Source: Candidatus Paraprochloron terpiosi LD05 | GTDB lineage: Bacteria; Cyanobacteriota; Cyanobacteriia; Cyanobacteriales; Prochloraceae | NCBI GenBank assembly: GCA_018141785.1 | Contig: CP073341.1 | Span: 1,315,118 to 1,379,117, forward strand | Length of the DNA: 64,000 nucleotides | Reading direction: 5' to 3' | Part shown: piece by piece, positions 20,215 to 23,530 of the stretch | How positions within the stretch are numbered: position 1 is the stretch's first letter | How the letters are laid out: every line of letters begins with the position of its first letter | Program-made: the position numbers and the translations under genes | Notes under the pieces: model-generated | What the model saw: only the letters and a program-made list of their open reading frames with translations | Told to the model about the DNA's origin: nothing | The model's database searches: none

Positions 20215-20596
20215 CGCCCGATCCTCCCGCCCGAAGGGCACCCCCCGATATTTTGGGGGGCTGGGGAGATCTACCCTATAGTTGATTACATCGTAGGTTG
20301 GGTTGAGGCCACGAAACCCAACACCCAAGGAGATTTATGTTGGGTTACGCTATCGCTAACCCAACCTACTATTGCACTCGCCCGATCCCCCCGCCCGAAG
20401 GGCACCCCCCGATATTTTGGGGGGCTGGGGAGATCTACCCTATAGTTGATTACATCGTAGGTTGGGTTGAGGCCACGAAACCCAACACCCAAGGAGATTT
20501 ATGTTGGGTTACGCTATCGCTAACCCAACCTACTATTGCACTCGCCCGATCCCTCCGCCCGAAGGGCACCCCCCCCGATATTTTGGGGGGGATCTG
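20215..20596. repeat. 164-bp tandem direct repeat array (2.3 copies)
   Basis: Units start at 20215 and 20379, and a partial third starts at 20543; the spacing is exactly 164 bp twice. The two full units are almost identical. Each holds several inverted repeats: GCCCGAAGGGC; a C6/G6 hairpin around GATATTTT; and two arms of the GTAGGTTGGGTT...AACCCAAC type, one around GAGGCCACG and one around ACGCTATCGCT. The GTTGGGTT palindrome is a common cyanobacterial intergenic element, but here it sits inside a longer tandem unit. The array ends 46 bp before the ExbB-like gene. Confidence 0.92.
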
Positions 20597-20641
20597 CACT
20601 ATAATATATTCTTATTGTTGACGAAATACAACTAATGCTTC

Positions 20642-21985
20642 ATGGCAAATACCAAGAATTTGGGGGAGCGTAACGAGCTAGAAGTTCCCTTAAAGTGGGT
20701 TTTACCCATCGGTTTCGTCCTAGCCTTGTTGATATATGTAACCTTAGGGGCTGCTCCCGAAGAAACCTATATCAAAACATTATTGACAGAAAGAGGAATA
20801 ACGCAACATTGCGTCATCGCCCTCTTCATGATAGTTTTGACTTTTGTCATCCTGAAACTCTTCAAGCTCATTATCGAGTCTTGGTCACTTCGCCCCTCGA
20901 TTCTCTCAAAAGTATCAAAAAAGAAATTAGCGAATAAAAATGAAATTTATAAGCTGTTGGAAGATTTAGAGAAAAAGCCTGGACTGCTACACAATCGTTG
21001 TCGCCGTGTCCTCCTTGCCTTAAAGGAGTCCGGCAATACTCAACATGCTATGGACATGGCGTATGACGAGTCTTCTTCTTATCACGAAGTGATGAGTACC
21101 TCCTATGCCTTTCCGAAATCGTTAGTTTGGGCGATTCCATTACTGGGCTTTATCGGGACAGTTATTGGTATTAGCAATTCTGTCGCAGGATTTTCAGGAT
21201 TCCTAGAGCAAACGGGAGAAATTGACCAAATAAAAGAAGGCATTAACAACGTCACAACCGGTTTGGCCGTCGCTTTTGACACAACATTTCTGGCACTTCT
21301 ACTCAGTGTTATTGTCATGCCGCCTTTGCTCTGGAGCGAGCGGTCTGAGACCCGTCTTCTCAATAGAATAGACACGATAATTAATCGTCACTTGCTTTCA
21401 AAAATGGTTAAACCCGAAGAGGCGAGACTGGACGAATCGACGATCAGAAATACAATAACAAAGACTCTCAAAGAAGGGTTGCCTGATGCCCAGCAGCTCA
21501 TAGAGCCTGCGAAAACTTACGCCGAACTGGCAGCTCAAGAGATAGGGACAATATTCGTGTCCGAGGTTACTCCCTTAGGAGATATTACATCCAAGGTACT
21601 AAAACAACTGCAAGAGGTTCACGAACAAGTTAAAGAGCAGCAGGGGCAACAGCAAAAACAATTGAGTAATTTTATCCAACAAATTCAGACTTTCAACCAA
21701 GAGTTGGGTAAGGCTCACCAAGGTACCACCTATTTGGCTCAAGGCATAGGGCAGCTCAAAAGCTCCAACTCCACCCTTCAAGAGAGTGTGATTGCTCTGC
21801 AAAAGGAAACAGCAAAGGTCAGTCAAATGCTGGAAGCGCAGCAGCAGATCGACCGTAACAAACAAGCAACTCTGGAAGGAATGGGAGCTTTTTTGGCACA
21901 GCTCCAAAAAGTACTGGAGCGGTTAGCACAGCCGCGTCACATCCATCTGGTGGAGCAGGAGGGTAATATCAATGCCAACTCCTAG
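20642..21985 (+). CDS. MotA/TolQ/ExbB-type proton-channel protein with coiled-coil tail
   Basis: This 447-residue protein has four membrane helices (about 19-36, 53-77, 161-186, 203-231). Helices 3 and 4 carry the family signature: WAIPLLGFIGTVIGI and NNVTTGLAVAFDTTFLALL, with the pore-lining threonines. A cytoplasmic loop of about 80 residues separates helices 2 and 3. The tail after residue 240, especially 325-435, is Gln-rich and strongly coiled-coil. Proteins of this class form a pentamer around an ExbD/MotB-like dimer and use ion flow to do mechanical work. A long tail recalls ZorA of Zorya anti-phage systems, but that similarity is architectural only. The next gene overlaps this one by 14 bp. 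Confidence 0.82.
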   Translation: MANTKNLGERNELEVPLKWVLPIGFVLALLIYVTLGAAPEETYIKTLLTERGITQHCVIALFMIVLTFVILKLFKLIIESWSLRPSILSKVSKKKLANKNEIYKLLEDLEKKPGLLHNRCRRVLLALKESGNTQHAMDMAYDESSSYHEVMSTSYAFPKSLVWAIPLLGFIGTVIGISNSVAGFSGFLEQTGEIDQIKEGINNVTTGLAVAFDTTFLALLLSVIVMPPLLWSERSETRLLNRIDTIINRHLLSKMVKPEEARLDESTIRNTITKTLKEGLPDAQQLIEPAKTYAELAAQEIGTIFVSEVTPLGDITSKVLKQLQEVHEQVKEQQGQQQKQLSNFIQQIQTFNQELGKAHQGTTYLAQGIGQLKSSNSTLQESVIALQKETAKVSQMLEAQQQIDRNKQATLEGMGAFLAQLQKVLERLAQPRHIHLVEQEGNINANS

Positions 21986-22436
21986 AACCTATAGGCGCCC
22001 CCAAGCTCCAAATATTGATTTATTCCCTTTTCTTTCTGTCTTAGCATGTACGATAGGAAGCCTCATTTTGCTTATTGTCGTCATTACAAGTCAGACTCTG
22101 AGCGATGAGAAAACAGTCACAATTGAGATTATTGATGAGGAGGGAAGCAACAAGACAAAAGTGCCTCGTTATGTTGAATGTGGGCAAGAGGGTGTTATTA
22201 TCTATCCCGATGAGACAAAGGTATCACTTTCGGATTTAAATGTTGAAGGTTCTGCTTTTAGAAAACTGTTAGAGGAACTTGAAACCCGGCGAGACCAAGA
22301 ATATATCATCTTGGCTATTAAACCAGACGGCTACGATATTTTTTATGAGGCTCGTAAATTGGTTGAAGAGCGGCGTATCGATTTAGGTTATGAACCTATT
22401 GATGAAGGCTGGAAGTTAAGAGTAAAAAGGAGATAA
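21972..22436 (+). CDS. ExbD/TolR-like stator subunit A (Ser at the usual Asp site)
   Basis: This 154-residue protein has a short N-terminal cytoplasmic segment (RTYRRPQAP), one membrane helix (about 18-38: FPFLSVLACTIGSLILLIVV) and a periplasmic domain ending EGWKLRVKRR. It aligns with the ExbD motif D-I-N-V-T-P-F-I-D-V as N-I-D-L-F-P-F-L-S-V, which puts Ser22 where ExbD has its proton-carrying Asp. The C-terminal segment (YIILAIKPDGYDIFYEARKL) resembles the ExbD periplasmic fold and the next gene's C-terminus. It overlaps the channel gene by 14 bp and precedes the next gene by 4 bp, so the three are translationally linked. Confidence 0.75.
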   Translation: MPTPRTYRRPQAPNIDLFPFLSVLACTIGSLILLIVVITSQTLSDEKTVTIEIIDEEGSNKTKVPRYVECGQEGVIIYPDETKVSLSDLNVEGSAFRKLLEELETRRDQEYIILAIKPDGYDIFYEARKLVEERRIDLGYEPIDEGWKLRVKRR

Positions 22437-22440
22437 GTTT

Positions 22441-23145
22441 ATGAGACGCAGGAGGGCGCGCTATTCTTTCACTCAACCTGAAAACAATTTGGACTCATTT
22501 TTGGACATTTTGACTAACACGGTGGGTGTCCTAACCTTTATCGGTCTATTTGTTAGTTTAGTAGCAGTGGAGGCAGGTTCGATTATCCGCACACCTTTAA
22601 CTAGGAAGACAGATAAAGAATCCTATTTTTTAGAAGTACGAGGGAATGAGATTATTGACCTCAATTCGAGCTTGAAAGAAGTAGAATCAGAATTAGAAGA
22701 GACCGTGGCTGCACTTCCCAAATGCATCCAGCCTTCGTTTCCTTCATCCATATACTTATACGAGTACTATCTTGAGCGTTTTGCTGAGTATACACGCTGT
22801 CTACAGCAAAACTATGAAACGTTAGCTAACTTTTCCATACAAACAAATCATTACAATGTCAAAGTAGATTTAGCGGGGGGTACAGTCTATGAGCCTAGGG
22901 ACGAAAGTCGGGGGGAATCTGCATCAGAAATTAACGAGGGAAACTCTCGGTTTCAAGAAATTTTGGCACAACTGGACCCGGAAAAGAAATATCTAGCCTT
23001 TATCGTGCGTCCCGACAGCTATGAAATATTTAGGCTCGCACGGAAGTTAGCTTGGAAGGAAGAGTTTGATGTGGGTTGGGAACCGCAGCAGCAGGAGCTA
23101 CCGCTTGTTTTTGGTTCTAGTGGTAGAAAAATCGACACACAGTAG
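22441..23145 (+). CDS. ExbD/TolR-like stator subunit B (Asp22 retained)
   Basis: This 234-residue protein starts with a basic RRRRAR segment and has one membrane helix (about 20-43: FLDILTNTVGVLTFIGLFV). Asp22 stands at the position of the ExbD/TolR proton-carrying Asp. An insert of about 90 residues (about 65-155) with predicted helix and two Cys residues (positions near 94 and 119) follows. The C-terminal domain (YLAFIVRPDSYEIFRLARKL, then DVGWEP) is shared with the gene before. The product is likely the second, larger half of a heterodimeric plug for the ExbB-like pentamer. It lies 4 bp after its partner. Confidence 0.75.
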   Translation: MRRRRARYSFTQPENNLDSFLDILTNTVGVLTFIGLFVSLVAVEAGSIIRTPLTRKTDKESYFLEVRGNEIIDLNSSLKEVESELEETVAALPKCIQPSFPSSIYLYEYYLERFAEYTRCLQQNYETLANFSIQTNHYNVKVDLAGGTVYEPRDESRGESASEINEGNSRFQEILAQLDPEKKYLAFIVRPDSYEIFRLARKLAWKEEFDVGWEPQQQELPLVFGSSGRKIDTQ

Positions 23146-23191: not shown

Positions 23192-23530
23192 ATGAGCTAC
23201 TGTAGAAATCCTGCTTGTCCTCGTCCCGATAATCCTGACGGTAATAAATCTTGTCACAGTTGTGGCTTAGAATTGTCAGCTAAACCTATATTTCGCAATC
23301 GCTATCGGGTTTTGAAGATCTTGGGTCAAGGTTCATTCGGTCGCACTTATATTGCAGAAGATCGGGACTGCATGGGGAATGATTTTCAAACACGTCTGAT
23401 GACCGTGATCGCTCTCTAAGAGAGGGTTCTTGGGTAGATCATCCCGTCTACTGTCGCTCTACCAGTCGCTATAAATTAAAGCCTGATGTGAAAAATTTTA
23501 TTATTGGTTTTCGGATTGTTTTTTTTGATC
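23192..23530 (+). pseudogene. internally deleted Ser/Thr kinase / formylglycine-enzyme-domain gene
   Basis: The first about 60 codons encode the start of a cyanobacterial four-Cys kinase: a zinc-knuckle CRNPACPRP...CHSCG and the glycine loop ILGQGSFGRTYIAEDRD. The frame then runs into TAA at 23417. In another frame from about 23385 the sequence reads DDRDRSLREGSW...YCRSTSRY...IIGFRIVF, the C-terminal signature of the FGE-sulfatase (SUMF1) domain. Proteins with exactly this kinase-then-FGE order exist in cyanobacteria, so this is such a gene with its middle removed. It lies 46 bp after the ExbD-like gene and converges on thiS. Confidence 0.75.

Follow-up and report, generated by a model that had tools for sequence, protein, structure and literature searches.

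An undescribed three-gene operon of cyanobacteria encoding a putative ion-driven motor with two unlike plug proteins

Some cyanobacteria carry an undescribed three-gene machine, a probable variant within the 5:2 ion-motor superfamily, that is related to the flagellar ion-driven motors and to the Zorya antiphage motor. Its operon was analysed in the window, by which we mean the whole 64,000-nucleotide stretch of Candidatus Paraprochloron terpiosi LD05 under study, and consists of a channel gene (B) followed by two plug genes (D1 and D2; Table 1). ORF coordinates gave a 14-bp overlap between B and D1 and a 4-bp gap between D1 and D2, which confirmed the three-ORF operon delimited at 20642-23145 by an initial annotation of this DNA. 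We consider it fairly probable that the products are three obligate parts of an ion-driven motor in the inner membrane, a member of the MotA/ExbB/TolQ/ZorA superfamily, which most likely senses or acts on the envelope and relays signal or force through a rod; an ion-driven machine had been proposed in the initial annotation, and we likewise infer one. New beyond that annotation are the co-occurrence of unlinked genes, an Asp/Ser asymmetry of the plugs, vertical inheritance in several families, and plasmid copies lying by type III-B CRISPR and restriction genes.

Table 1. Features of the B-D1-D2 operon (positions in the window)
Feature	Position	Strand	Remark
B	20642-21985	+	channel subunit of the MotA/TolQ/ExbB family; 447 aa with four TM helices and a ~215 aa cytoplasmic tail
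B Thr173 codon, TM3 motif GFIGTVIGIS	21158-21160	+	aligns with ExbB Thr148
B Asp213-Thr214-Thr215, TM4 motif AFDTT	21278-21286	+	Thr215 aligns with ExbB Thr181
B tail, proline-free coiled-coil part, residues 312-430	21575-21931	+	heptad contrast z 5.2, for the tail as a whole
B C-terminal motif PRxIxLVE, end of coiled coil	21932-21955	+	conserved among copies
Shine-Dalgarno-like AGGAGGG before D1	21957-21963	+	sequence
D1	21972-22436	+	ExbD-like plug protein, 154 aa, one TM helix and a periplasmic domain
D1 Ser22 codon, place of ion-binding Asp (ExbD Asp25)	22035-22037	+	Ser in most copies
Shine-Dalgarno-like AAGGAGAT before D2	22427-22434	+	sequence
D2	22441-23145	+	second ExbD-like plug protein, 234 aa; helical insert in periplasmic domain; NLDSFLD motif keeps Asp
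D2 Asp22 codon (equivalent of ExbD Asp25)	22504-22506	+	Asp in 27/28 copies

Of 60 related genomes, 10 contained D1, and most of these loci showed the same B-D1-D2 order. In a phylum-wide survey of 386 cyanobacterial genomes, D1 was present in 22; B occurred in the identical 22, and D2 in the identical 22 and, as a remnant only, in G100. A caveat to these counts is that some of the carrier lineages had themselves supplied members for the search profiles. The recurrence of the same three proteins together in 22 of the 386 genomes rules out chance ORFs. The genes were not all linked in nine of the 22 carrier genomes, which represent three lineages: D2 lies apart in four genomes of family f14 and in G059 (on another contig), and all three genes lie apart in the four f40 genomes. 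Because B, D1 and D2 co-occur even when unlinked, we regard them as one obligate three-part machine, and this co-occurrence without linkage is the best evidence for it.

The channel subunit B was assigned to the MotA/TolQ/ExbB superfamily by its match to Pfam MotA_ExbB PF01618 (E 5.4e-8; 33.1 bits, above the gathering cut-off of 22.9) and by its conserved pore threonines. Four helices were predicted from hydropathy, and the loop between helices 2 and 3 is rich in positive charge, which places it in the cytoplasm. The Pfam match and the hydropathy together bear out the ExbB-type four-helix channel of the initial annotation. Profile alignment to ExbB/TolQ gave the threonine equivalences listed in Table 1, and Thr173 and Asp213-Thr214-Thr215 were invariant in all 27 copies holding that region. 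Heptad periodicity of the tail was significant against shuffles in the window copy, and z ranged from 3.8 to 5.2 across five relatives. The C-terminal motif, a PR followed by a hydrophobic-acidic run, was found with variants in 25 of 28 B copies. ZorA_2 (NF033915) was the best named profile for B and gave a sub-threshold match in 11 of 16 members; the window B scored 28.1 bits against the family cut-off of 100, and 17.9 bits against PADLOC ZorA3. The earlier description of a ZorA-like coiled-coil tail of more than 100 residues is supported by the heptad signal, the proline-free stretch and ZorA_2 as the best named family.

D1 and D2 each have one predicted helix (hydropathy), and comparison of their profiles (hhalign, 99.4%, E 5.6e-22) indicates that they are paralogues, D2 having an insert of ~80 residues relative to D1. 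Ser22 of D1 pairs with Asp22 of D2 in this alignment, and both residues align in register with ExbD Asp25. Asp22 was kept in all but one of the D2 copies (Table 1); Ser22 was found in 25 of the 27 D1 copies retaining the position, the exceptions being Asn in G215 and Ala in G059. The D1 and D2 of the window gave no match to PF02472 (ExbD). Among relatives, 2 of 12 D1 proteins gave a weak match (best E 0.0027) and D2 gave none, and hhalign against a three-member ExbD/TolR alignment was weak for D1 and D2 (probability 32% and 0.4%), agreeing in register only. AlphaFold models had a pLDDT of 85 for D1 and 86 for D2. The modelled periplasmic domain of D1 is probably of the ExbD/TolR type: Foldseek placed TolR 5by4 first and ExbD 8p9r and 8vgd among the best (probability 0.96-0.99, E above 0.001). 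The D2 model alone had no confident structural match (TolR, probability 0.23), and PDB sequence searches with the D1 and D2 profiles returned nothing relevant. Two different ExbD-type single-helix proteins, as reported initially, are upheld by the D1-D2 paralogy, the single helix of each and the probable fold of D1.

In outline the operon resembles Zorya ZorAB (types I and II), which also has a four-TM A subunit with a long cytoplasmic coiled-coil tail and a plug with a TM Asp and a periplasmic domain. Unlike Zorya, it encodes two plug proteins, D1 with a probable ExbD/TolR-like domain, and its B falls under the ZorA cut-off. No ZorC, ZorD or ZorE gene was recognised adjacent to the operon. 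PF15611 (EH_Signature), which we take to be ZorC, was not found in the window genome and was absent from 18 of the 22 carrier genomes; in 4 of the 22 it was present, away from the operon. From the ZorA scores below cut-off, the lack of effector genes and the absence of ZorC from the genome we conclude that the operon is not Zorya, and the earlier remark that ZorC/D/E-like effectors are missing agrees with these searches.

The initial annotation had further set the operon apart from canonical systems, which it described as using a single plug gene. This contrast was wrong, since two-plug systems are already known. Myxococcus AglR-AglQ-AglS likewise combines one TolQ-type gene with two different TolR/ExbD-type genes; Pfam ExbD recognises AglQ and AglS with strong scores (6.7e-18 and 3.1e-15; PMC3169522), whereas D1 and D2 lie at a much greater distance from that family. 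Agl also differs in working with Glt partners, and AglR, at only 245 aa, is without a tail like that of B. In Xanthomonas and Flavobacterium two exbD genes (exbD1 and exbD2) stand in tandem with exbB; the Xanthomonas system is linked to tonB, and B differs from these systems in its four TMs and its tail. A PVC-group system (PMC12204202) pairs a tolQ-like gene with two unlike tolR-like genes, but its cluster includes TPR and vWA transducer genes, of which the present operon has none. E. coli TolQ-TolR and ExbB-ExbD share with it the pore Thr pair of B, the aligned Asp22 of D2 and the probable TolR/ExbD-like fold of D1; here, by contrast, two plug proteins share one Asp and TonB, TolA and Pal are absent. 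Canonical ExbBD is encoded separately in the window's genome. Among the openly licensed papers searched, none describes the operon or links ExbB/MotA-type genes with CRISPR, and within that literature the operon is undescribed, as had been suggested.

In trees of B, D1 and D2 the copies grouped by family, and f14 and f40 formed single groups in all three. Family grouping required 11 changes for all groups together, against ~19 in shuffles. Pairwise distances of the three proteins were correlated (r 0.91-0.93), a correlation that includes shared descent. In f40, D1 adjoins gatC and D2 adjoins hisF in two genera; in f14, B adjoins a purK-like gene in two genera. Loci common to two genera, together with the family-wise trees, identify the genes as stable chromosomal residents in these families. 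Inheritance was vertical in several families, the exceptions being family f33 and two plasmids. The plasmid copy of Anabaena cylindrica PCC 7122 grouped with f33 copies, and that of Microcystis aeruginosa NIES-2481 with G103 (f33) in all three trees (99-100% support). These groupings imply transfer if f33 is, as we infer, Nostocaceae. A plasmid collection covering all bacteria held copies only in Anabaena and Microcystis. A phage origin was rejected, with no matches in phages or viral contigs. A Chloroflexaceae carrier is doubtful: contig JAAUTE010000078.1 (L019), titled as a Chloroflexaceae MAG, carries the operon, and the title is probably wrong since the contig has the same length as contig C82 of G012, a genome of the window's order.

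The stable chromosomal positions over genera favour the reading of B, D1 and D2 as a constitutive envelope machine, with Tol-Pal-like maintenance, surface motility or cell-wall remodelling as its task and unlinked genes as its partners. This is a serious possibility, short of an even chance. The probable ExbD/TolR-like periplasmic domain fits such a task, for which AglRQS and Tol-Pal are precedents. Against it, the distribution is patchy (22 of 386 genomes) and plasmid copies lie near defence genes. Moreover, in neighbourhood tables of the carrier loci, genes of the TonB, Tol, Pal, OmpA or Glt type were not recognised in the vicinity of the operon, and neither TonB nor TolA transducer genes accompanied the motor genes. 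No neighbour gene recurred across families in these tables, and the lack of partner genes noted initially was borne out when neighbours of the co-occurring genes were compared across cyanobacterial genomes. A tubulin-like gene of 1109 aa, next to B in a single Thermosynechococcus-like genome, was rejected as a partner; 14 of 22 carriers and 8 of 20 non-carriers have it, and it was linked once.

A chiefly antiphage role, in which a Zorya-like sensor motor would act through a defence module adjacent or elsewhere (Csx1 and type III-B CRISPR in the f33-like clade), is possible though rather doubtful. Besides ZorA_2 being the best named family for B, the loci themselves point this way. Type III-B CRISPR genes precede the operon in the f33-like clade, and in G123, in G184 and on the Anabaena cylindrica plasmid the gene immediately preceding B encodes a Csx1 CARF-HEPN protein (PADLOC E to 1e-250); Cmr genes lie alongside on that plasmid, and a RAMP gene in G123 scored as Cmr6. 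In G100 (L120, G100:C53, 5599-6170) the C-terminal part of Csx1 is joined directly to the last 48 residues of D2. This junction is a deletion scar left by the loss of B and D1, and it preserves the Csx1-B-D1-D2 order. The Microcystis plasmid copy adjoins N-6 methylase, SLATT and PLD-helicase genes, NsnA/NsnB-type genes adjoin the operon in G103, and an Orf5/HEC-06-type gene lies ~1 kb from it in G147. A set of 94 control genes, picked at random positions in the same set of genomes, gave a kinase and a few other matches among the 25 families listed, and no CRISPR or restriction model was among those families. However, the defence-linked loci amount to about three clades, and the defence link is therefore suggestive; a defence-only reading, checked against the same controls, was rejected as suggestive with few independent clades. 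The copies of f14, f40, f8, f18, f19 and the window lie among housekeeping genes, with the f40 and f14 positions common to genera, and the absence of ZorC from most carriers and of any phage or viral contig match also argues against an antiphage role.

We hypothesized that the machine is an envelope-sensing or envelope-acting motor. In 5:2 motors two identical plug helices alternate their Asp at Thr rings, with a 36-degree step per ion (PMC12905483). Here, five B subunits would surround one D1 and one D2 helix (5:1:1, with a heterodimeric plug). Ions would pass Asp22 of D2 and the Thr173 and Thr215 rings of B. Their flow would rotate the B pentamer, together with its cytoplasmic rod of bundled coiled coils, relative to D1:D2 periplasmic domains that would be held in the envelope. 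The B tail would form this rod as in ZorA, whose rod is a five-helix bundle and where the bundle, peptidoglycan binding (by ZorB) and ion flow are all required (PMC11890865). D1 would be the neutral partner; it may set the direction or serve to anchor another ligand in the envelope. Because only one plug helix carries the ion-binding acid, such a motor would take five 72-degree steps per turn, not ten of 36. Against this, a second ion site might be provided by D2 Asp18 or by the acidic residue 16 of D1. The most likely job would be sensing or acting on the cell envelope, as for ZorAB, with signal or force passed to the cytoplasm via the rod, and some lineages have seemingly drawn the machine into antiphage defence. 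In its full form (an obligate heterodimeric one-acid plug, a five-step 5:2 motor, and an envelope sensor recruited next to type III CRISPR defence) this proposal is tentative and carries considerable doubt. The current 5:2 rotation model rests on two identical plug helices with alternating acids, and a conserved natural pair of an acidic and a neutral plug would test that model directly: does it rotate, and with what step size? For cyanobacteria the operon adds a machine of three strictly co-inherited proteins, and this machine may be a new membrane partner for type III CRISPR islands.

D1 and D2 could instead act as homodimers. That they are alternative plugs, each a homodimer with B, has a parallel in Xanthomonas, where exbD2 is dispensable for iron uptake and has a role separate from that of exbD1 (PMC3551730). 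It is nevertheless unlikely here, since D1 is without the essential Asp and a D1-only motor should be dead, and neither plug was found without the other in the 386 genomes, G100 holding a D2 remnant. A non-rotating ion channel or signalling complex is very unlikely: a one-acid plug is unlike those of tested motors and G059 has lost the acids of D2 yet keeps all three proteins, but the B threonines and D2 Asp22 are strongly conserved in all other lineages.

The proteins of G059 (L030 and L031) are fast-evolving, and its D1 is also changed. Its D2 is without both TM acids, Asp18 and Asp22, a natural acid-less version, and G059 may hold a dead or changed version of the machine. The copy of G208 (L077, 6039-6936) is decaying: B is without its N-terminal channel part, D1 has a stop near its start, and D2 is intact. 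The genome of G046 (L026 and L027) has the complete operon twice, as divergent copies. On pANACY.03 (L125, Anabaena cylindrica PCC 7122) the motor operon shares an island with type III-B CRISPR genes and with genes for a viperin-family protein and a deoxynucleoside kinase. In the window, pntAB-like genes lie upstream of the operon, and a broken kinase gene and a thiE-like gene downstream. Two copies of an intergenic repeat (GGTTGGGTTGAGGCCACGAAACCCAACACCCAAGGAGATTTATGTTGGGTTACGC...) stand immediately upstream of B at 20300-20620. At 23192-23500 lies what is left of a Ser/Thr kinase gene of the 4-Cys-prefix type, coding for 75 aa of the N-terminus; the sequence after it resembles, as judged by eye, the C-terminal end of a formylglycine-generating-enzyme-type domain. 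A large internal deletion in a kinase gene probably accounts for this arrangement.
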